This document shows, piece after piece, positions 12,319-34,603 of a stretch of 64,000 nucleotides of DNA. The DNA is from Phragmitibacter flavus (GTDB lineage: Bacteria; Verrucomicrobiota; Verrucomicrobiia; Verrucomicrobiales; Verrucomicrobiaceae), in assembly GCF_005780165.1 (NCBI RefSeq), contig NZ_VAUV01000008.1, positions 248,001-312,000 on the forward strand. Reading direction: 5' to 3'. The stretch's first letter is position 1. Each line of letters opens with the position of its first letter. The notes under the pieces are model-generated. The model made no database searches, had not been told where the DNA came from, and was given only the letters and a program-made list of their open reading frames with translations. A program made the translations under genes and the position numbers.

Positions 12319-12921
12319 TCACGCGGGACGCTTCATTTCGAACATGTCGCGGGTGCGGGCATACCAGCCGGGACTTTGCATGCGAGCGATGGGATGATAG
12401 TTGGCCGGATCGATCAGCCAGCTCCCTGGACTGAAGATGCCGTCGCGGACATGAACGCGGAGAACTTCGCCGATGATCAACCGATTATCGCCAATCTCGA
12501 GGATGCCCCAGCTTTTGCATTCGAGCGAAGCGGGCGCTTCCGCAATGCGGGGTGGTTTGACCACCGATGAAGCAACGGCGGTGAGTCCGGCATGTTCAAG
12601 CTCGTTCTGACCGGGCGGCAGGGTCGCGGCACAGAGGTTCATCTGCTCCATGATGCCTTCATCGACCAGATTGACGACAAATTCATGCGTGAGCCGAATG
12701 TTGCGGGCGGTGTCCTTGGGGACTCCAGGCTCGCGGTCGCCGGGACAGATGCCGACAATAGGCGGGCTGTCGCCGAGCACGTTAAAGAAGCTGAACGGGG
12801 CGGCGTTGATGCGTCCCTCGGGATCGATGGTGGTGGTCAACGCGATAGGGCGCGGAGTGACCAGCCCCGCTAGGATCGAGTAGGCGTCTTCGCGATGGGG
12901 GCCGGTGAGATCGATTTCCAT
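12319..12921 (-). CDS. flavin reductase-like (FMN-binding split-barrel) protein
   Basis: About 200 aa from the ATG at 12921 (MEIDLTGPHREDAYSIL); the frame is open much further upstream, but those codons resemble nothing. The sequence shows the pattern of the flavin-reductase/flavoredoxin split barrel: LVTPRPIALTTTIDPEGRINAAPFS near the N-terminus, then NVLGDSPPIVGICPG and KDTARNI, features that bind FMN phosphate in this family. Members reduce flavin for partner monooxygenases or are NAD(P)H:acceptor reductases; the specific partner here is unknown. It is divergent from the dehydrogenase gene at 13152 with a 230-bp shared spacer, so joint regulation with that operon is possible but unproven. 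Confidence 0.8.
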   Translation of the reverse strand: MEIDLTGPHREDAYSILAGLVTPRPIALTTTIDPEGRINAAPFSFFNVLGDSPPIVGICPGDREPGVPKDTARNIRLTHEFVVNLVDEGIMEQMNLCAATLPPGQNELEHAGLTAVASSVVKPPRIAEAPASLECKSWGILEIGDNRLIIGEVLRVHVRDGIFSPGSWLIDPANYHPIARMQSPGWYARTRDMFEMKRPA

Positions 12922-13151
12922 GTTTAGCTTTACGCCTTGCAGAATTGACGCGCACCCAAAGAATTGGGGTGATTCACCAAGTCTCTCGCGGCGAGGTGTT
13001 GTAGGGGTCGGAGGGCGCAGGTTGTCGGCAACGGTCAATGTTTTCCATTGATGGTTATGTTTAAGGAGATAAGCGTAACTTCTTAAAACTCGGCAGGAGA
13101 TGTTAGAAATCCGGCCCTCCCGAACCGCCAAAACTCCCTTTTTTGTCATCC

Positions 13152-14321
13152 ATGTCAATTCAACGCCTCAATCCCGCTGAGCCTCCGCAACTTTGGACCA
13201 CCTGCCTGCATGGGGACAAAAGCAGGGCGTCCCGGTGCCCGACCAGGGATTTGCTTCTGGGAGCCATTCCCGGGGAGGGGGTGGGTCCGGAGGTGATTGC
13301 CGCCAGCCTTGAGGTGCTGCAAGCCGTCGCATCTGCGACAGGACTGACACTGCAGGTTCGCGAGGGAGGAGCCATTGGAAGGGATGCGGAACGGCAATGT
13401 GGACAGGTATTGACCCGGGATGTTGTGGAGTTTTGCCACGAGATTTTTGATGCTGGCGGCGCGGTGCTTTGTGGGCCGGGAGGAGGTCGTTTTGTGTATG
13501 ATGCAAGGATGGCCTTCGACTTGTTTTTCAAGATCAGTCCGCTGCAAAAGATCAACGGGTTGACGGATATCTGCCGCCTGAAACCGGAATGGGTGCGTGA
13601 TCTGGATATTCTGGTGGTGCGGGAAAACTGCGGCGGAGCTTATCAGGGAATCTGGCGCGAAACCGACGAGGCGGCGCATCACGAATTCAGCTATTCAGCG
13701 GCGGGGGTGCGTCGCTTTTTGACGGCGGCAGCGCGGTTGTCCGCGAGCCGGTCCAGACATCTTACCGTGGTCTGGAAGGAGTCGGGCGTGCCGGGCATCA
13801 GTCGTTTGTGGCAACGCTGCATGGCAGAGGTCGCCGAGACGGAGAACGTCACCTTCTCGATGGTGGACATTGATTTGATGTCCTATCGACTGATCAGTGA
13901 ACCTTCGGCTTTTGATGTGATCGCAACTCCCAACATGTTTGGCGACGTTCTGGGTGATCTGGGGGCGGTGTTGTTGGGCGCGCGCGGGATCTCATTCTCG
14001 GGCAATTACTCAGCGGACGGTCACCGCGCCATCTACCAAACCAACCATGGAGCGGCGTATGACCTGGCAGGCCAACAAGTGGCCAATCCTGCGGGCCAGA
14101 TCTTCTCTGCGGCGATGATGCTGCGCGAATCGTTTGGATTGTGGCGCGAAGCTGCAGCGGTGGAAAAAGCCGTGCAGACGGTTTGGAAAAACGGCTACAG
14201 AACGCGGGATGTGGCGGTGTCCGGCTGCAGGGTTGTTCGCACAGGGGAACTGGCAGCCATGGTGGCCGAACAAGTCCACGGGCAACTGGGCAGGGAAAGT
14301 TCAGCGGCTGCTTATTCCTGA
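13152..14321 (+). CDS. isocitrate/isopropylmalate dehydrogenase family enzyme, substrate unknown
   Basis: A 389-aa beta-decarboxylating dehydrogenase homologue. Family elements are IPGEGVGPEVI at the N-terminus, VRENCGGAYQG (compare VRELTGGIYFG of LeuB), the metal-binding acidic motif NMFGDVLGDLGAVLLG, and the NAD-binding NHGAAYDLAG with ANPAGQIFSAAMMLRE. The substrate loop differs from LeuB: GRFVYDARMAFDLFFKISPLQ replaces the Arg-rich LRKEL..FANLRP segment. Where LeuB has DKANVL this protein has WKESGV, keeping the Lys. It is therefore unlikely to be ordinary LeuB or Icd; tartrate- or homoisocitrate-like 2-hydroxyacid substrates are alternatives. It is the first gene of a tight operon: the next ATG lies 3 nt after its stop. 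A TTG at 13143 is a possible alternative start. Confidence 0.8.
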   Translation: MSIQRLNPAEPPQLWTTCLHGDKSRASRCPTRDLLLGAIPGEGVGPEVIAASLEVLQAVASATGLTLQVREGGAIGRDAERQCGQVLTRDVVEFCHEIFDAGGAVLCGPGGGRFVYDARMAFDLFFKISPLQKINGLTDICRLKPEWVRDLDILVVRENCGGAYQGIWRETDEAAHHEFSYSAAGVRRFLTAAARLSASRSRHLTVVWKESGVPGISRLWQRCMAEVAETENVTFSMVDIDLMSYRLISEPSAFDVIATPNMFGDVLGDLGAVLLGARGISFSGNYSADGHRAIYQTNHGAAYDLAGQQVANPAGQIFSAAMMLRESFGLWREAAAVEKAVQTVWKNGYRTRDVAVSGCRVVRTGELAAMVAEQVHGQLGRESSAAAYS

Positions 14322-14324
14322 TTT

Positions 14325-16226
14325 ATGGACCTGCCAGTTCCAGCATCCATGCTAGTCTTGGTGGACTTGCAAAACGACTTCCTGGGGCGTGCCGATTTGC
14401 GCCCTGCGGCGGGCGTTATCATTGAACGTGCGGGTTTCCTGCTGAATGCCTACCGGCACCACGCCATGCCCGTCATTCATGTCCGCACCACGGTGACCAA
14501 AGATCCCGACAATCGCATGGCCCATTGGCGTAGAGACGATCGCTGGACTTGCGTTGAGGGCAGCGATGGACACTCACCGCCGCCCTCCCTGCGCGAGATC
14601 GAGGGCGAAAAGCTGCTTCACAAACAGGGGTTCGCGGCACCCCGTCTGGTGGAAGAGGCTCGCGCCCATGCTTCATCAAAAGTCTTGATCGCCGGAGTGA
14701 TGACCCATGCCTGCGTGCGTCAGGCCGTGCTGGATTTTTTCCAGGCTGGATATGAGGTGTTTGTCGCCGAAGATGCCACAGGCAGTGACGACCCACTGCA
14801 TGTAGCTTCAACACGACGTTTTTTTGAGGAGCGCGGGGTCCACTTTGCCCCCAGTGCCACCCTGGCGGCCCGTTTGCTGGAGGGCAAGCCACCCGGTGGC
14901 CGAATGACTGACAAGCCCACGCTGCGCACGCTGTCGTCCGACGCATCCGACTTCGCCCGCGAATGGCGTCGCACCGATCTTGCCCATCGGACCGGGCTGG
15001 CCATGCGGTTGGTGCAGCCGCTTCGGGAACGTGCGGAAGCGCTCGCCCGTCAAATGGCGGTTGAAATCGGCAAGCCGGTTCATTTTGGGCAGATGGAAGT
15101 GCTGCGATCAGCGGAAATGATCGAAGCCATTGCCAGGCGTTTCGTCCATTTGGAAACTCCTGCCGAAAATGCGGTCATCAAAGTGCGCAGAAAGCCGCAC
15201 GGAGTGGTGGCGATCATTACGCCGTGGAACAATCCGGTCTACATCCCGCTCGGCAAAATCATCCCTGCCATTCTCGCCGGCAACACCGTCCTCTGGAAAC
15301 CAGCCCCAGAAGCCGCCTCCATCGCCCGCGAGATTATGGCGTTAACCCGGCAGTGCGGCTGGCCACCTGCCCTGCTGCAGGTGGTTGAAGGAGATGCCCA
15401 TGCAGGTCGTGCGCTGCTTTCACAACCAGAGATCGGCGCAGTGACCATCACCGCTTCATCGGGGGCAGGTTACGAGGTGGCTGAAGTCTGCGCCCGGCGC
15501 CACCTGCCATTTCAGGCAGAACTGGGTGGCAACAATGCCGCCATCGTATGGCGGGATGCTGATTTGAATCTGGCTGCCGAAAAAATCGCCGCCGGTGCTT
15601 TCGAAATGACCGGCCAGCGCTGCACCGCCAACCGCAGGGTGATCGTTCATGAATCGATCATGGAGGAATTGATGCGCCTGCTGATTGAGAAGGCCGCCGC
15701 CATGTCTTGGGGGGATCCACTTGACCCCAACACCCGCATCGGGCCGATGGTGAGTGCAACGCAGCGGGATCGTGTGGACTTGCTGGTGCAACGCGCCATC
15801 CGCGAAGGGTGTTCCACTTTTTATCCCCTGGGTCAGCAGCCGTTCATCACGTCAGATTTCACCGGGTCCCATTCGTGGCTGGCTCCAGTGGTGATCATTT
15901 GCCCTGATCCCGGCCTCGAAATTGTCCAGGAGGAGACTTTCGGCCCCGTTTTGGTCGTGCAGACCGCCCGCGACTGGGAACACGCCCTCGCGCTGTGCAA
16001 CGGCGTTTCACAAGGACTCGCGGCCGCTCTGTTTTCCACTTCCGCTGACCTCATCCGCAGCTTTCTCGACGAGGCCCAGGCCGGCATTCTCAAAATCAAT
16101 GCCTCCACTTCCGATGCCATGGTGGACGTTCCGTTTGGAGGATGGAAGGCCTCGGGCAGCGGACCGCCCGAACATGGCAGCCACGATCTTGACTTTTTCA
16201 CGCGCATCCAAACCGTTTACCTATGA
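14325..16226 (+). CDS. fusion: isochorismatase-like cysteine hydrolase + aldehyde dehydrogenase
   Basis: One 633-aa open frame with two enzyme domains. Residues 8-185 form an isochorismatase-fold hydrolase with the expected triad candidates: Asp14 (LVDLQNDF), Lys100 (LLHKQGF) and Cys130 (GVMTHACVRQ, with the cis-peptide position before it). Residues 200-633 are an NAD(P)-dependent aldehyde dehydrogenase: ITPWNNPVYIPLGK, LAGNTVLWKPAPEA, general-base Glu399 (ELGGNNA), nucleophile Cys433 (MTGQRCTANR), EETFGPVLVV, and a C-terminal FGGWKASGSG. The linker (about 185-198) contains an in-frame ATG at 14904 that could allow internal initiation of the ALDH alone. The last four bases overlap the next gene (ATGA), implying translational coupling. 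The substrate is unknown; an amide or ester hydrolysis feeding an aldehyde oxidation is a natural guess. Confidence 0.88.
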   Translation: MDLPVPASMLVLVDLQNDFLGRADLRPAAGVIIERAGFLLNAYRHHAMPVIHVRTTVTKDPDNRMAHWRRDDRWTCVEGSDGHSPPPSLREIEGEKLLHKQGFAAPRLVEEARAHASSKVLIAGVMTHACVRQAVLDFFQAGYEVFVAEDATGSDDPLHVASTRRFFEERGVHFAPSATLAARLLEGKPPGGRMTDKPTLRTLSSDASDFAREWRRTDLAHRTGLAMRLVQPLRERAEALARQMAVEIGKPVHFGQMEVLRSAEMIEAIARRFVHLETPAENAVIKVRRKPHGVVAIITPWNNPVYIPLGKIIPAILAGNTVLWKPAPEAASIAREIMALTRQCGWPPALLQVVEGDAHAGRALLSQPEIGAVTITASSGAGYEVAEVCARRHLPFQAELGGNNAAIVWRDADLNLAAEKIAAGAFEMTGQRCTANRRVIVHESIMEELMRLLIEKAAAMSWGDPLDPNTRIGPMVSATQRDRVDLLVQRAIREGCSTFYPLGQQPFITSDFTGSHSWLAPVVIICPDPGLEIVQEETFGPVLVVQTARDWEHALALCNGVSQGLAAALFSTSADLIRSFLDEAQAGILKINASTSDAMVDVPFGGWKASGSGPPEHGSHDLDFFTRIQTVYL

Positions 16227-17236
16227 GCCTGACCACCGACCACTACCTGCCATCATTGCGCCCTGTTCCCCCGGATCTCGGTCGCAAGCTTCATCACAAT
16301 CACATGGAACAACTGGGCATCGCCGACACCATGCGGCTCGCTTACGCCTGCAACCAGGTCGAGAATTGCGCGCAAGACGAGTGGCGGCGGCAGCTTTACC
16401 AAGATCAGCTGCAGGAGTTGATGACGGCCAACGGGCAATTCACCGTCCCCGCCATCCACCTCAACGACGGCTGGGCGATCGATGATTCCATGTCGCTCCC
16501 CCATTTGGACCGCATCCTTGCGTCCTCGGAAAAAATCATCGCTGAACGGTCAGGCCAGCGCAAGTCCGAGCCCGGAACCTATCGCAGTTACTTTCAAGAT
16601 GTGTGGAAGCCAGGCAGCGATCCTCTCGACTACCCGGAATTCCTCGATTTCGCCACCTCCAGCGACATCCTTGCCCCGATCTGCCACTACGTGGGCTGCA
16701 TCCCGGCGCTGTCGACCACACTCCCCTCGGGCATCCGCTTTGTTGAATCCAATGCCGCTTTCGATGATCAGCCCGACCGCCCCCATGACAGCCAGCTCTA
16801 CCACATCGACTACTATTCCCTGCCCAATGTCTACGTTCTGGTGCTGTTGCGTGACACCACTCGTGAACACGGACCCTGGACCTTCCTGCCCCGATCCATC
16901 TCCCAGCATGTGAAAGAACAACTGGGTTACTGGAAACACGCTCGTGGCTACCGTCTCAGCGACGAAGAAGTATTCTCCGTCGCCAACCCCGCCGATGCGA
17001 TCGAGTTCACCGGTAAACGTGGCACCGTGCTCTTTATCGAATCTTCAGGCTGCCTGCATTTTGGCAGCCGCAACTCCATCCAGCCGAGGTTCCAGCTCAT
17101 GCTTGGATACACGGGTGCCTGTCGAACCGATTTTTCAGAGACCTTCATGCCCCCCAAAGTTTATCCTGTCCAAGAACACGACTCCCTGTTGCGCAAACTG
17201 GTATTACAAAAGTCACTGCTTCCCGGTCCGGTCTGA
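16223..17236 (+). CDS. phytanoyl-CoA dioxygenase-like Fe(II)/2-oxoglutarate oxygenase
   Basis: A 337-aa protein of the PhyH type. The iron ligands are recognisable: His194 and Asp196 in LYHIDYY, followed by the strand LPNVYVLVLLRD and TREHGPWTFLP. The distal His279 lies in ESSGCLHFGSRN, and Arg289 (QPRFQLML) is the likely 2-oxoglutarate anchor. Such enzymes hydroxylate or halogenate small molecules, acyl chains or carrier-bound amino acids. It overlaps the upstream fusion gene by 4 nt and ends 16 nt before the stop of the convergent NRPS-like gene. It probably performs an oxidative tailoring step in this locus; the substrate cannot be read from the sequence. Confidence 0.82.
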   Translation: MSLTTDHYLPSLRPVPPDLGRKLHHNHMEQLGIADTMRLAYACNQVENCAQDEWRRQLYQDQLQELMTANGQFTVPAIHLNDGWAIDDSMSLPHLDRILASSEKIIAERSGQRKSEPGTYRSYFQDVWKPGSDPLDYPEFLDFATSSDILAPICHYVGCIPALSTTLPSGIRFVESNAAFDDQPDRPHDSQLYHIDYYSLPNVYVLVLLRDTTREHGPWTFLPRSISQHVKEQLGYWKHARGYRLSDEEVFSVANPADAIEFTGKRGTVLFIESSGCLHFGSRNSIQPRFQLMLGYTGACRTDFSETFMPPKVYPVQEHDSLLRKLVLQKSLLPGPV

Positions 17237-17252
17237 TCCAGCCCGGTCCACC

Positions 17253-19790
17253 TCAGCGCGACGCCGCGCCATCCTCAGACAAAATTTCATCCAGCACCCT
17301 GGCCAGATCCGCCCGACGCTCACGCAGATAAGTGGCGTGATCGCCAGGCGCTACGCGGCCAATGCAGGCGCTGCCGAGCCTGGCACTCCACCATTCGAGA
17401 CAGGGGCCAAGCCGCTTCGATTCCTGCGAACAGACCAAATGCACCGGCTTGGGATACCGCCCGGGAGCCGCTGAACGCAAAAGCTTGTAGTAGCGATCCA
17501 TTGCCGCGCCATGCCGAACATCATTGGGCGGTGCAAAACGCGGCAGCCAGGGATCAAGCAGGATCAGGGATGGAGTGACACCGGCCTTTTTCGCGAACCA
17601 ACGGGCCGTTTCGCACGCCAGAGTCGATGCCTGACACTCGCCGACGATCACCGGTTGCTGCATCGGAAAACGCTCGTGCCAGGACTGCCCCACTTTCCTC
17701 GCCAGCTGACACAGGGACCACGGAGGAATCACCTTTTTGGCCCGCAGATTCAACCGTATTCCAAACACCTGGCATTTTGTTTCCATTTTTGCGATCAGCT
17801 GCATGAACACCAACAGTTCTGCCTCACCGGTATACCCACCGGGAATCACAAGCAGCGGAGTTCCCGTGCCGGAAGGCCGAAGTTCCAGCAGACTCGCCGT
17901 CACCCTGCGGAACCAAGGTTCTCGCCTTTGTCGAACAATCCCGCTGTCCACCGCATCGGCCATCTGGGCAATGGTGGGAAAGTAAATCAGTGTCCCTGCA
18001 TCAATTTCCAGGTCCAGCGTTTTTGACAACCGCAGGGACAGATCCACCGCTTGAAGCGAGTCAGCCCCTGTTTCAAAAAAATTCTGATAGACCCCGACCG
18101 ACAATCGATTCAACACCTCGCACCACACCTTCGCAATCCGCTCCTCCGTGCGCGTTCGGGGCAGCACTTCGAAGGTCGAAATCCGTTTCTCGTCCTCAAT
18201 CCTCAGCGCCGAGAGGTCCGGCTTGCCATTCGCCGTAAATGGAATGGCCGGCAATGAAACAATTCTGCCAGGCACCATATAAGCCGGCAGCAAACTTCGC
18301 AAACCATCCCGCACCTTCTGTTCCACCTCCTCGCCACAACCCTCGTCCGGCACCAACCATGCACACAACTCCACTCCACCACCAGGCTTGTCCATCACGA
18401 CCACCACCGCCTCCCGGACCATGGGCATCGACAACAACACTTCTTCAATCGCCCGCAAATCCACGCGGTTGCCCATCAATTTCTGCTGTCGGTCCCTGCG
18501 TCCCAGATGTTCAATCAAACCGTCTCCCCCCATTCTTCCGCGGTCGCCCATTCGAAACATTCGCTCACGACTTCCCGGCACCATGTGAAAGGACTGGGCT
18601 GTGGCCACCGGATTGTTCCAATAGCCTGGAGACAAAAAATCGCTCACCACCACCAGTTCCCCCTCCGTTCCATCCGTGACCAACTGGCCGTTCTCGTCCA
18701 TGATCATCAAATGCTTGCCCTCAACCGCAGACCCGATGGGAATCACCCCACCTCGCGGCGCGTCCCCTACCCGACAGACAAACTGCGTCACATTCCCCGT
18801 TTCCGAGGAAGAGAGAACGTTGGCAAACTGACAATGCTCCTCCGCGATCCTTCGGCTCGCCTCCAAATCCGCCAGCAGTGTCCGCTCCGCCCCCAGTCGG
18901 ATCAGCCGCAGATGAGGCAGCTTCACGCCCATAGGCACCGCCTGCGCAAAACGCCTGAACGCCGAGGCCGATGAGACAAATGCGGTGATCTTGTGTTTCA
19001 CCACCCAGTCTGCCAGCGGAGCCGCCCCCCGCTTGCGCAACGCATATGGATACAGGGTCGCCCCATTTAACAACGCGCAAAAAGTGGTCATCATTCCCTG
19101 CCCCCCCGAAAGCGATCCCAGCAACACCACCCGGTCTGACTCGCAATAACCCAACCTTCGGCGGTAACCCCTCACCGAATGCAACAGGTTGCGGTGATTC
19201 TGGATCACTCCCATGGGCCTTCCCGTCGATCCCGAAGTGAAAATCAGATAAGCAGGCGCTTCGGGCCGAAGCTCCATTCGTGGATTCGCATCCGCGTCTG
19301 CACTCAAACCCACGTCCAAATCCCTGTCATCATAACACCAGGTGGCAAAAGCATGCTCCGCCAGCCCCGGTAGCCAGTCTTCATGCTCCTTGTCTACGAA
19401 CAACCATCGAGGCTTCGTATCCTCGACTACCTGCCCGAGCCTTGCAGGTGGATCCGCCGTGTTTAAAACTAAAACCACCCTGCCCGCCTTCAACACTCCC
19501 AGCAGCACCGCAAAAAGAGGCAAATCATGTCGCATCAAAATTGCCACCAGATCTCCCGTCCCGCCGCCATTCGCCAATATAAAATGGGCAACCTGATTGG
19601 CCTTCAGGTTCAACTCCGCGAAAGTTGGCTGCCAGCCACCGGCACCAATGGCGCGTTTCGATCCCCAGCTTCGCACCACCCCTTCAAACACCTTCGGAAT
19701 CGATTGCTCAACACTCTCCCACATGGCCCCCGCACTACCGGCACCCGCGATCCTTGCTGTATGAACGATTTGCTGCAAAGTCTGAACCAC
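17253..19790 (-). CDS. single-module NRPS-like protein: adenylation - carrier - thioesterase
   Basis: An 845-aa protein (GTG start; an ATG at 19724 is an alternative). The adenylation domain spans about 30-530: A3 loop TSGSTGRPMGV (184-194, with Met where the second Lys of TGKPKG is usual), A5 SSSETGNVTQ, A7 MFRMGDRGR, A8 GRRDRQQKLMGNRVDL, and A10 NGKPDLS with catalytic Lys523. The carrier domain (about 540-615) has phosphopantetheine Ser578 in FFETGADSLQ. The alpha/beta-hydrolase thioesterase (about 635-845) has Cys719 in VGECQAS in place of the usual Ser, with Asp746 (LLDPW) and His818 (GDHATYL) completing a triad. There is no condensation domain. The protein should activate one carboxylic or amino acid, tether it and release it. 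It is convergent with the three-gene operon at 13152-17236. Confidence 0.9.
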   Translation of the reverse strand: MVQTLQQIVHTARIAGAGSAGAMWESVEQSIPKVFEGVVRSWGSKRAIGAGGWQPTFAELNLKANQVAHFILANGGGTGDLVAILMRHDLPLFAVLLGVLKAGRVVLVLNTADPPARLGQVVEDTKPRWLFVDKEHEDWLPGLAEHAFATWCYDDRDLDVGLSADADANPRMELRPEAPAYLIFTSGSTGRPMGVIQNHRNLLHSVRGYRRRLGYCESDRVVLLGSLSGGQGMMTTFCALLNGATLYPYALRKRGAAPLADWVVKHKITAFVSSASAFRRFAQAVPMGVKLPHLRLIRLGAERTLLADLEASRRIAEEHCQFANVLSSSETGNVTQFVCRVGDAPRGGVIPIGSAVEGKHLMIMDENGQLVTDGTEGELVVVSDFLSPGYWNNPVATAQSFHMVPGSRERMFRMGDRGRMGGDGLIEHLGRRDRQQKLMGNRVDLRAIEEVLLSMPMVREAVVVVMDKPGGGVELCAWLVPDEGCGEEVEQKVRDGLRSLLPAYMVPGRIVSLPAIPFTANGKPDLSALRIEDEKRISTFEVLPRTRTEERIAKVWCEVLNRLSVGVYQNFFETGADSLQAVDLSLRLSKTLDLEIDAGTLIYFPTIAQMADAVDSGIVRQRREPWFRRVTASLLELRPSGTGTPLLVIPGGYTGEAELLVFMQLIAKMETKCQVFGIRLNLRAKKVIPPWSLCQLARKVGQSWHERFPMQQPVIVGECQASTLACETARWFAKKAGVTPSLILLDPWLPRFAPPNDVRHGAAMDRYYKLLRSAAPGRYPKPVHLVCSQESKRLGPCLEWWSARLGSACIGRVAPGDHATYLRERRADLARVLDEILSEDGAASR

Positions 19791-31177: not shown

Positions 31178-34100
31178 ATGCCCCGTCTGGCGTTCACCCT
31201 AAACAACGGTAAAGAGTTCATCCACGAACTCAACGCCCAACGCATTTCCATCGGTCGCGATCAACGCAACGAGATCCACGTCGACAGCACTTTCGTCTCC
31301 AGCTTTCACGCCGAACTCGTCAGAAAAGACCCGGACCAGACTTACTACGAACTGGTCGATAAAAATTCGACCAACGGCACCTTCGTCAACGGCGAACGCA
31401 TCCGGCGCATCAACATCGCCGTCGGAGACAAGATCCGCTTCGGGGAACTTGACGCCGTGCTGCTGGATTCCCCTTCCCCATCATCTGCTCCTGCACCTGC
31501 TCCTGTCCCGACACCTTTCCCCTCCGTCTCCACCTCTCCTCCCAAACCGGACGGCAGTTCCACCATGATGTTGCAAGGAACTGCCTCCGCTGCTCCGGCA
31601 CCCGTCCTCTTTCCAAAACCCCTGGCCGCCAGCTCCCACCCCCCCGCACCGACCGCCCTAAAAGGCTCGTCGACGTCAAAACCTGGCACCTCAAAACCAA
31701 GCCCGCCAGCCCCCGGCATTTCCAAGGCATCCGCCGCATCTACTCCCGTGGCCCCTTCCACCACCTTAGCTCCCCCCGCCGTCGCCCTCTCCAGAACCGA
31801 CCCTCCGGCAGACAACATCGCTCCCGCTGCAGCACCAGTGCCCGCCCCAAACCGGGACGCTTTGGAAGCGCTTCAAGCCGAAGAAGCCGCCGTCCGGACT
31901 GAACTCGAATCGCTCAAAAAACAGACCGCCGCCCACCAGCGCGATCTGGACAAACTCGAGGCCACCAAACAGGAACTCAGCGCCAACGAATCGCGCCAGC
32001 TCGAACTCAACGCCGCCCTCGCCCTTCTGCAAAATCAATTCAGCGAACGCGACAACCGGCTCAAAAAGACCAACGACTCCCTCCTCGAACGTCAACAGGC
32101 CCTTGAAGCCGCCCGCACCCAGGAGAAAAAACAGCAGGCCGCCCTTGATGCCGTCAACAAACAGCTGGCCGACGAACGACGCCAGCTCGAGACGCTGCGC
32201 GCCGACGCCGCCAAAAGCACCACCGCCCTCAACGAACGCATCGCCGCGCTCGACCACACCCTTTCCGACAAACAATCCGAACTGCGCACCGCCGAGGAAA
32301 AGCTCGAACTCGCCCGCAAATCGGAGGCCGAGACGATGCTCAAAGTCGAGGCCCTGTCCGACACCGACAACCGCCTCAAAGACACCACGGTCGCCCTCCA
32401 GGCTCTCGAAGAGCAGAAACAGAAGACCGAACAGCAGCTCATCTCCCTGACTCAGGAACGCGAGGAAAAAGACAACCTTATCGCCTCCATCACCGAGCTC
32501 AGCACCGCCCAAAACACCCTGCTGCAAACCCTCACCAGCAAGCGCACCGATCTCGAAGCCACCCTGGCCAATCTCGAATCCACCGCCACGGAAAAACAGA
32601 CGCGCATCCGCGATCAGGAAGCCGACATCGCCAGCCTCAAGGAACGCACCGAGGCCATGGAGAAGAACCTCGCCGGCGAAAAAGCCGCCCAGGAGGCCTT
32701 CACCAAAATCCAGGAGGACCTCAGCGCCGCCGAGACCCAACTCAAAAACACCCAGCAGGAACTCAGCGACGAGCAGTCCGCCCTCAGCAAAACCACCGCC
32801 GAGATCCAGGCCCTTGTCCTCGCCCTCGCCACCCACCGCGAAGAAACCAGCGCCGCCGAAAAAAACCATCAGGAAGCCACCGCGAAACTCACCGCGACCC
32901 AGGCACGCATCACCGAGCTCGCACCGACCGAACAAAAACTCGACGAAATCCTCAAGCAGGTCGAATCCGTCACCCAGGAAAGACAAACGCTGGATACCGC
33001 CGTCTCTGCCCTCCAAAAAACGCGCGACGAACTTCAGTCCGCTATCGACCAGCTCAACGCCGATCAACTCACGCTGACTGAGAAAAACGCCAGCCTCACC
33101 GCGCAAATCAAAGCCGGCGAAGAAAAAAACCGTCAGCTCACCGCCAGCATCCACACGACGGAAAACGACCTGAAAACCGTCCAAACCCTTCTCGAAGACA
33201 CCCAGCAAAACCTGCAAAAAACCCAGGGTGAAGAAAAGAGCTCACGCGACCAGCTCGCCGCCGTCACCTCCGAGTTCAACACCACCAAAACCTCTCATCA
33301 AGCCCTCCTCGAACAGAGCACCCGCGAGCAAACCCGGCTCACAAAGCTCAACGACGACATCGAGCAGTCCACTCAAAAAATCGCCGCACTCCAAAAGCAG
33401 GAAACCGATCTCACCCAAACCATCGCCACCCTTAAAGACAACACGGCGAAGCTCGAAAAAGACCAGGCCGACCTCGTCGACCGCAACCACAAAGCCCAGG
33501 ATCAGCTCGCGAAACTTCAGGAGGAAGAAAAATCCTCCCGCAGCCGACTTCCCCTCATCACCGGCGAAATCACCACGGCCCAAGCCGCCCTCGCCGCCCT
33601 CCTGACCCAAAACACCAGCGAACAAACCCGGCTCACCGACTCTACCAAAGAAGCTGAAGCTGCCGCCAAAAAACTCGCCGAACTGCAGAAACAGCAAGCC
33701 GAACTCGAGCAATCTCTGACCACGCTCAAAGAGAGCAAAACCAAACTCGAAGAAGAACAGGCCAACCTGCAGACCAGCACCAAGGAAACCCAAACACGCC
33801 TGACCCAGCTTCAAACCGACGAGAAAAGCGCACGCGACGCCAACGACAAAGCCCAGTCCGCCCTCAAAGAGAGCAGCTCCGCCCTTGAAAAACTTCAGAA
33901 GGAAATCGCCGCCAACACCACTCGTCTTGAGACCGAATTGAACGAGGGCGATCAATTGCTGACCATCACCGCGGCCCTCGGCCTCGCCAAGGAACGCCAG
34001 AAAGACAGCACCGCCAAGCTCAACGAAACCACCGAAAAAGAAGCCGCTCTGAGTGTCCAGGTCACCAGCCTCGAAGAACGCATCACCCGCCAGACCAAGG

Positions 34101-34603
34101 CCCTCGAACAACAACAGGAAGATGCCCGCAACAAAGAGGCCGAGGCACAACAGGCCCTCGCCAAAGCCAAAACCGAACTCGCCAGCAGCACCAGCCGCGT
34201 CACCGAGCTTCAGCAGAAAGAAAAGCTCCTCGCCGACAAACTCGCCACCGGCACCGACAGCCAGACCGTCATCCTGTTTGCCCACGACCTCATCAACCGC
34301 CTCGAGTTGCTCGACTTCGTCATCCAGCGTTACTCCTCCTCAAACGAAAACGCGGATGTCGTCGATCAGCTCCAATCGCTGCGCCAGTCCTTCGAGGACA
34401 TCCTCGCCCAGCACAACGTCAACGAATTCACCATCCGCCCGGGTCTTGAAGCCGATGCCGCCCTTTACCATCGCATCAACCTGATCGGCGAAGCCCCGGA
34501 AGACGCCCCCCTCCGCATCCGCGAAACCATCCGCCCCGGCTACCTTTACCAAAGCCCCAACGGGTCCTCCGTGGTCCTCCGCAAAGCCGACGTCAAAGCG
34601 TGA
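31178..34603 (+). CDS. FHA-domain protein with very long coiled coil
   Basis: A 1141-aa protein. Residues 5-95 form a forkhead-associated phosphothreonine-binding domain: ISIGRDQRNEIHVD, SSFHAELVRK, NSTNGTFVNGERI, and VGDKIRFGE carry the expected Arg, Ser-His and Asn residues. Residues about 95-220 are a Pro/Ala/Ser-rich flexible linker. About 225-1030 is almost uninterrupted Glu/Lys/Gln/Ala/Leu coiled coil. The last 100 residues (from TVILFAHDLINRLELLDF) look like a small globular domain. No signal peptide or membrane segment is visible, so it is probably a cytoplasmic scaffold that docks onto phosphorylated proteins; no kinase gene lies nearby. Confidence 0.85.
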   Translation: MPRLAFTLNNGKEFIHELNAQRISIGRDQRNEIHVDSTFVSSFHAELVRKDPDQTYYELVDKNSTNGTFVNGERIRRINIAVGDKIRFGELDAVLLDSPSPSSAPAPAPVPTPFPSVSTSPPKPDGSSTMMLQGTASAAPAPVLFPKPLAASSHPPAPTALKGSSTSKPGTSKPSPPAPGISKASAASTPVAPSTTLAPPAVALSRTDPPADNIAPAAAPVPAPNRDALEALQAEEAAVRTELESLKKQTAAHQRDLDKLEATKQELSANESRQLELNAALALLQNQFSERDNRLKKTNDSLLERQQALEAARTQEKKQQAALDAVNKQLADERRQLETLRADAAKSTTALNERIAALDHTLSDKQSELRTAEEKLELARKSEAETMLKVEALSDTDNRLKDTTVALQALEEQKQKTEQQLISLTQEREEKDNLIASITELSTAQNTLLQTLTSKRTDLEATLANLESTATEKQTRIRDQEADIASLKERTEAMEKNLAGEKAAQEAFTKIQEDLSAAETQLKNTQQELSDEQSALSKTTAEIQALVLALATHREETSAAEKNHQEATAKLTATQARITELAPTEQKLDEILKQVESVTQERQTLDTAVSALQKTRDELQSAIDQLNADQLTLTEKNASLTAQIKAGEEKNRQLTASIHTTENDLKTVQTLLEDTQQNLQKTQGEEKSSRDQLAAVTSEFNTTKTSHQALLEQSTREQTRLTKLNDDIEQSTQKIAALQKQETDLTQTIATLKDNTAKLEKDQADLVDRNHKAQDQLAKLQEEEKSSRSRLPLITGEITTAQAALAALLTQNTSEQTRLTDSTKEAEAAAKKLAELQKQQAELEQSLTTLKESKTKLEEEQANLQTSTKETQTRLTQLQTDEKSARDANDKAQSALKESSSALEKLQKEIAANTTRLETELNEGDQLLTITAALGLAKERQKDSTAKLNETTEKEAALSVQVTSLEERITRQTKALEQQQEDARNKEAEAQQALAKAKTELASSTSRVTELQQKEKLLADKLATGTDSQTVILFAHDLINRLELLDFVIQRYSSSNENADVVDQLQSLRQSFEDILAQHNVNEFTIRPGLEADAALYHRINLIGEAPEDAPLRIRETIRPGYLYQSPNGSSVVLRKADVKA

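Follow-up and report, generated by a model that had tools for sequence, protein, structure and literature searches.

We found that four adjacent genes of Phragmitibacter flavus constitute a real and conserved set, and that they very likely belong to one pathway. The genes lie within a 64,000-nucleotide (nt) stretch of contig NZ_VAUV01000008.1 (positions 248,001 to 312,000; hereafter, the window). They encode a dehydrogenase resembling 3-isopropylmalate dehydrogenase (IPMDH; 13152..14321, + strand, ATG start at 13152 with an in-frame TTG at 13143), a fusion of an isochorismatase-type hydrolase and an aldehyde dehydrogenase (ALDH; 14325..16226, +), a predicted PhyH-type Fe(II)/2-oxoglutarate (Fe/2OG) oxygenase (16223..17236, +), and a non-ribosomal peptide synthetase (NRPS)-like protein with adenylation (A), peptidyl carrier (PCP) and thioesterase (TE) domains (A-PCP-TE; 17253..19790, −, 845 residues from a GTG start with an internal Met23). 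An initial annotation of this DNA had described a tight operon facing a convergent NRPS-like gene. We re-derived the coordinates, and all of them held: a 3-nt gap separates the dehydrogenase and fusion genes, the fusion and oxygenase genes overlap by 4 nt, and the ends of the oxygenase and A-PCP-TE genes converge with 16 nt between them. This arrangement is more than chance because it recurs in other genomes.

We assigned the four genes to one pathway, and not to a catabolic operon beside an unrelated gene, because the set recurs and NRPS genes are coupled to the fusion gene elsewhere. The reading that we favor, and consider reasonably probable, is that these genes encode a compact and self-contained route to the biosynthesis of a single unusual carboxylic acid derivative.

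Recurrence of the gene set

We searched a sample of 387 genomes of the phylum with limits of E ≤ 1e-3 for the oxygenase, E ≤ 1e-80 for the fusion or its ALDH, and E ≤ 1e-62 for the dehydrogenase. The second limit was set by us after paralogues had been seen at 3.8e-64 or weaker, and the third after solved IPMDHs had been seen at 3.1e-56 in another database. Each of the three proteins was found in two of the 387 genomes, in every case the query genome (G000) and a distant one (G109). G000 being the query itself, what carries information is that G109 was the lone other positive all three times. The oxygenase occurred in one of the 288 genomes of the class of G109 (G109 itself) and in two of the 57 genomes searched as relatives (G000, which is included in this count, and G012). 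On the G109 contig, taken as JAQBYD010000036.1, one strand carries an IPMDH-like gene, an ALDH gene after a 74-nt gap, an oxygenase gene overlapping by 4 nt, an FHA-GAF histidine kinase gene and an A-PCP-TE gene.

Genome contigs were then scanned with the oxygenase alignment. Two narrow patterns gave 117 pattern matches, from which five loci were confirmed. Identity was 71% for JARGOP010000025.1, 71% and 80% for two contigs bearing the title Akkermansia muciniphila, 43% for the G109 contig and 39% for a metagenome-assembled genome (MAG) of Hyphomicrobiales. More distant oxygenase relatives may be missed because the patterns were narrow. The Akkermansia muciniphila label (L025 and L026) looks wrong; the two genomes measure 6.4 and 5.9 Mb and hold 27 and 18 matches to the window A-PCP-TE protein.

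JARGOP010000025.1, a Verrucomicrobiales MAG (hereafter, JARGOP), contains all four gene types plus a protein that ends in a condensation (C) domain (A-PCP-C). One strand carries A-PCP-C, an IPMDH-like gene 633 nt on, isochorismatase-ALDH, A-PCP-TE and a phosphopantetheinyl-transferase-like gene; the dehydrogenase and fusion genes overlap by 4 nt, as do the fusion and A-PCP-TE genes, and the oxygenase gene is convergent, as in the window. The first piece of the gene after A-PCP-TE matches an N-terminal phosphopantetheinyl-transferase family at 2.4e-7, and the second piece, in another frame, was unmatched; this gene (L049, about 2450-2970, −) is either broken or affected by a sequencing error. 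By eye, a short repeat coding for ...HCPGLEGGN... appears at two places in the region (L049 7500-9300 and 401-838), and an integrase-like fragment stands beside the oxygenase gene. These are possible traces of mobile elements.

In the similar MAGs G433 and G434, which we counted as one lineage because their fusions are 91% identical, isochorismatase-ALDH overlaps A-PCP-C by 4 nt, and the oxygenase is on other contigs; in G434 a DUF3500-type gene lies upstream. Altogether, 4-nt overlaps between an NRPS gene and the fusion gene occur in three genomes from two other lineages (JARGOP, G433 and G434), and A-PCP-C adjoins the fusion or the dehydrogenase in two other lineages. ALDH, oxygenase and a related NRPS-like gene are found in four lineages, three of which (G000, JARGOP and G109) also have the dehydrogenase. 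The initial annotation had made its proposal depend on co-occurrence of the gene set outside this strain, which we found in G109 and JARGOP.

Domains and catalytic residues

The dehydrogenase, a member of the beta-decarboxylating dehydrogenase family, scored 218 bits against Pfam PF00180 (Iso_dh) and 197 bits against NCBIfam leuB, which has a cut-off of 353; two cluster relatives scored 215 and 196 against leuB. The cluster dehydrogenases are 45 and 44% identical to the window protein. In an alignment to solved IPMDHs, Lys212, Tyr167, Asp244/268/272, Arg122 and Arg160 were kept, and one conserved Arg was replaced by Ser132, with Val in both relatives. We take the Lys, Tyr and Asp residues to be catalytic and the replaced Arg to be substrate-binding. 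Standard malate-type decarboxylation is uncertain because this Arg is replaced. Lys130, two residues before it, was invariant in all three cluster dehydrogenases. Assignment to LeuB was rejected, as the score is below the curated cut-off and one Arg is lost.

The fusion was defined by its Pfam matches (Isochorismatase, 101 bits; Aldedh, 379 bits) and by located residues, namely Asp14, Lys100 and Cys130 in the hydrolase half (residues 8-166) and Glu399 and Cys433 in the ALDH half (residues 204-631), which are presumably catalytic. Full-length fusions with 44% identity were present in two other lineages, and an ALDH without the hydrolase (47%) in a third. Identity within the cluster set was 44-52% (91% between G433 and G434), whereas none of the five paralogues compared exceeded 37% (six loci tried, five yielding a protein). 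The best NCBIfam matches of the ALDH were catabolic semialdehyde dehydrogenases, far below their cut-offs.

At 1e-3, the window oxygenase was matched by neither Pfam nor NCBIfam, and no relative was found among PDB sequences at E 10; Pfam PhyH was matched at E ≤ 1 by four of the seven family members (best, 3.1e-4), the window protein being unmatched. Its metal motif consists of His194-x-Asp196 and His279, with HxD in six of seven aligned rows and the distal His in all seven. The row without HxD is the G109 copy (L023 10268-10723, −), which lacks roughly 175 internal residues; the loss is in frame and reflects either a natural deletion or an assembly error. The AlphaFold model of the window protein had a middling mean predicted local distance difference test score (pLDDT) of 65.6 and a long helical N-terminal part. 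The model matched Fe/2OG oxygenases such as ColD, H11, KanJ, GriE and EctD at Z 13-14, and the best 50 VIA-align rows had Z 12.6-14.1 over 192-233 residues with root-mean-square deviations of 3.8-5.4. The best 50 Foldseek and best 50 VIA-align rows bore titles of Fe/2OG-type oxygenases or of enzymes known as such. VIA-align was restricted to the 1000 best chains of Foldseek, and the absence of a family there carries no meaning. The seven-member alignment, the PhyH matches in relatives and the fold match point to a PhyH-type oxygenase, and the fold match agrees with the double-stranded beta-helix of this family.

The A-PCP-TE protein was assigned by Pfam (AMP-binding, 177 bits; AMP-binding_C, 45 bits; PP-binding, 44 bits), alignments and a TE model, and it holds all three domains in one chain together with the A10 Lys and the carrier Ser. 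The A domain comprises residues 28-530 (18201..19709, −), and the carrier domain, located by Pfam PF00550 and a residue check, comprises residues 550-614 (17949..18143, −). The residue check placed A10 Lys523 and carrier Ser578 exactly where the initial annotation had put them, and both were invariant in ten of ten rows. In an alignment to LgrA and nine relatives, Gly230 occupies the position of Asp235, the Asp that binds the alpha-amino group; across the ten aligned rows, this position held Gly in eight, Ile in one and Thr in one. Passages of a review (PMC11253843) and of the auriculamide study (PMC5238615) place Gly there in one A domain for an alpha-hydroxy acid and one for an alpha-keto acid, and also for anthranilate. 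Because Gly replaces the amino-binding Asp, the likely substrate of the A domain is an acid that has no alpha-amino group, and these residues lend support to the earlier claim that it loads an acid. The argument is not proof, since one Phe-activating domain has Val at this position according to the passage in PMC11253843.

We placed 19 A domains in a midpoint-rooted tree, into which nine of 12 further NRPS loci tried were entered. The main split was supported at 100/100. One side held the six cluster-linked A domains, three other family A-PCP-TE proteins and one further NRPS of G433, and the other side held eight other NRPS A domains and one long-branch A-PCP-TE. Inner groups were moderately supported, joining G000, G018 and the JARGOP A-PCP-C (89/81), and G109, the JARGOP A-PCP-TE and G002 (87/82). 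The host genome has eight AMP-binding matches, of which the domain make-up was checked for the A-PCP-TE protein alone, and a condensation-domain search of this genome gave no match. Peptide-bond formation by a condensation domain therefore seems to play no part in the action of the A-PCP-TE protein. Its description as a stand-alone protein thus stands for this genome but not for the family, in which A-PCP-C occurs in two other lineages.

The TE domain (about residues 640-845; 17256..17873, −) was delimited by alignment, model and Foldseek. The window TE gave no Pfam match at E ≤ 1, whereas four of five aligned TE domains did. Its model (pLDDT 83) matched thioesterases of NRPSs and polyketide synthases (PKSs), the best being the Vlm2 TE (E 5.6e-11). 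The triad positions are Cys719, Asp746 and His818, with Cys where Ser is usual, and the GEC motif, the Asp and the His were invariant in five aligned GEC-type TE domains. Among the seven TE-bearing rows, the nucleophile position held Cys in five, Ser in G109 and Arg in JARGOP; three A-PCP-C rows, which end in condensation domains, were excluded from this count. Asp746 lies after the strand following the nucleophile helix and was invariant in five of five, as judged from sequence and model with no superposition. In the portions of PMC6668435 and PMC11298585 consulted, the catalytic Asp of ObiF1 and SulM is elsewhere, at position II, which is on strand 6 and not on strand 5. An ObiF/SulM-type assignment was rejected on this ground, Asp746 being at the ordinary NRPS site. 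The GEC motif, at the place where GxSxG is usual, is shared by the window protein and four A-PCP-TE proteins of G018 (two), G012 and G002 (L016 5292-7808, L017 8620-11136, L018 8109-10883 and L019 5006-7504), whose neighboring genes differ. In G018, an isopropylmalate/homocitrate-synthase-like gene (L016 7811-9451, −; HMGL-like domain and a further C-terminal part) is convergent, at a distance of 2 nt, with the gene of a 40% identical A-PCP-TE protein, a further hint of acid-building enzymes near this type of A domain.

A proposed route to an unusual acid and its rivals

Starting from the observed gene set, its domains and catalytic residues, its recurrence, the coupling of NRPS and fusion genes and the search without a condensation-domain match, we infer all of the reactions and their order, along with substrate and product, as follows. 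In step 1, the IPMDH-like enzyme would use NAD+ to oxidize a malate-like 2-hydroxy acid, and CO2 may or may not be lost in the process. In step 2, the isochorismatase half may hydrolyze an amide- or enol-type bond, and the ALDH half would turn an aldehyde into a carboxylic acid. The A domain would adenylate the resulting acid, which has no alpha-amino group, and load it onto carrier Ser578 (step 3). The PhyH-type oxygenase would hydroxylate the acid, either carrier-bound or free (step 4), and the Cys-type TE may release it by hydrolysis, ring closure or the joining of two units (step 5). With regard to the interpretation given in the initial annotation, two parts gained support: the gene set as one pathway, through recurrence and the 4-nt overlaps, and an acid-type A domain, through its residues.

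We further speculate on a new minimal biosynthetic logic in Verrucomicrobiota. The dehydrogenase, short of one carboxylate-binding Arg, would take a malate analogue bearing an amide or thioester; the fused hydrolase-ALDH would unmask and oxidize it; the lone A-PCP would hold the acid for hydroxylation by the PhyH-type enzyme; the Cys-type TE would cyclize or dimerize it; and the housekeeping AcpS would prime the carrier. We consider this scheme unlikely. Were it to hold, the A-PCP-C proteins of relatives would represent extensions of this core to two modules.

Several observations weigh against a single conserved pathway. The window NRPS gene is on the opposite strand, outside the three-gene operon. 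The G109 oxygenase has lost HxD with its roughly 175 missing residues, and the G109 ALDH has no hydrolase. In G433 and G434, the stretches read showed no IPMDH-like gene, and no search for one was made. An A-PCP-TE protein of G018 (40% identical) stands without the other three gene types, and the G012 oxygenase (47% identical) is likewise alone, with 20 kb read in each case; none of the other genes was seen in the neighborhood of the 39% oxygenase relative in the Hyphomicrobiales MAG. These lone relatives suggest that the parts can function apart. The JARGOP TE carries Arg in place of the nucleophile and again in place of the His. Finally, a PF01648 search of the host genome found no Sfp-type phosphopantetheinyl transferase, the sole ACPS-family match being AcpS beside pdxJ. 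Carrier priming is unaccounted for because only AcpS was found; AcpS might serve as the primer, or a divergent transferase might have been missed.

The position of the NRPS gene on the opposite strand would suit a catabolic module, in which the three-gene operon converts a hydroxy acid through an aldehyde into an acid, with no relation to the neighboring A-PCP-TE gene. The best family matches of the ALDH, catabolic semialdehyde dehydrogenases, point the same way, though far below cut-offs. However, JARGOP, G433 and G434 have NRPS genes that share 4 nt with the fusion gene, the A-PCP-TE gene of G109 comes after the gene set and on its strand, and the cluster-linked A domains fall together on one side of the 100/100 split. 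We rejected this explanation as largely refuted, NRPS genes being coupled to the same set elsewhere, and hold it to be the least probable of the rivals. A cysteine at the nucleophile position, here and in five of seven TE rows in all, together with an oxygenase bearing a metal motif, is compatible with closure of a strained beta-lactone ring by the TE from a beta-hydroxylated carrier-bound acid, the PhyH-type enzyme giving the hydroxyl, as ObiF does for obafluorin. We regard this as very doubtful: Asp746 does not share the position of the ObiF1 and SulM Asp described in the consulted portions of PMC6668435 and PMC11298585, and cluster relatives have Ser or Arg at the nucleophile position.

Alternatively, the A-PCP-TE protein may be an adenylation-thiolation-thioesterase (A-T-TE) synthetase of the quinone or furanone type, loading an alpha-keto acid made by the dehydrogenase, with the TE joining two units. 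The tri-domain layout is the same, there is no condensation-domain match, and IPMDH-type enzymes produce alpha-keto acids. In addition, the fungal PpaA1 has a predicted Fe/2OG dioxygenase domain behind its A-T-TE, with no evident function in that study as far as the passages of PMC10316625 tell. The same passages state Val as the first code residue of alpha-keto-acid A-T-TE enzymes, whereas the first code residue here is Gly230, on which ground we rejected alpha-keto quinone synthetase as a family assignment. According to the part of PMC5238615 consulted, AulA-A2 carries Gly as an exception to the Val rule. The rest of the pocket here is, by eye, unlike the alpha-keto codes tabulated in that study. 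The acid may also come from the ALDH instead. We consider a synthetase of this type unlikely and retain the biosynthetic pathway for one unusual acid derivative as the favored reading.

Neighboring genes and comparison with known systems

The gene set lies within one of the 44 contigs of the 5.9-Mb host genome, and the adjoining genes read as those of ribosomal proteins L1 and L11, NusG and EF-Tu. An upstream, divergent flavin reductase-like gene (12319-13158, −) and the downstream QueF and class III aminotransferase genes were left out of the cluster; by eye and with no dedicated search, none of the three was seen in the open-reading-frame lists of the relatives. Promoter and terminator scans showed no excess over shuffles (1 versus a mean of 2.1, and 8 versus 8.8). 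Elsewhere in the window, a 1141-residue open reading frame (31178-34603, +) comprises, by eye, an FHA domain and then a long stretch rich in Lys, Glu, Ala and Thr, and it probably accounts for the AT-skew peak at 32-36 kb.

The gene combination had been thought undescribed, and we found no description of it in one library of open-access papers, most subscription journals being outside this scope. The set is small, recurs and lends itself to experiment; at its center is an NRPS-like protein whose host genome gave no condensation-domain match. It includes two subfamilies for which no description was found, the IPMDH-like one and the PhyH-like one that is uncaught by Pfam. Genome mining that relies solely on Pfam would overlook both the oxygenase and the TE of the window, neither of which matches Pfam. 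If the product is found, one more way in which bacteria modify a carrier-bound non-amino acid would be known.

Known relatives share parts of this system. The synthetases of atromentin and polyporic acid are likewise single A-PCP-TE proteins without a condensation domain, for which a non-amino acid is expected, as here; ralfuranone synthetase RalA is another A-T-TE synthetase. The window protein differs from the atromentin and polyporic acid enzymes in having Gly and not Val as the first code residue and in its linkage to a dehydrogenase, a hydrolase-ALDH fusion and a separate oxygenase; it has a Cys-type TE, and theirs were not compared. The TEs of ObiF (obafluorin) and SulM (sulfazecin) have the cysteine nucleophile in common with the window TE, which differs in its GEC motif, in an Asp at the ordinary NRPS position and in having no upstream C domain. 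The oxygenase has the HxD...H metal motif and the predicted fold of ColD, KanJ, H11, EctD and GriE, but it is 10-17% identical to the solved relatives listed, invisible to Pfam and modeled with a helical N-terminal part. The dehydrogenase belongs by sequence to the Iso_dh family of 3-isopropylmalate, homoisocitrate and tartrate dehydrogenases and keeps the Lys, Tyr and Asp that we take to be catalytic, but it is far below the listed NCBIfam cut-offs, and the three cluster proteins have Ser, Val and Val in place of Arg. Finally, the presumed catalytic residues of isochorismatase-family cysteine hydrolases and of semialdehyde-type ALDHs are both present in the window protein; the two enzymes are joined in one polypeptide in three lineages.

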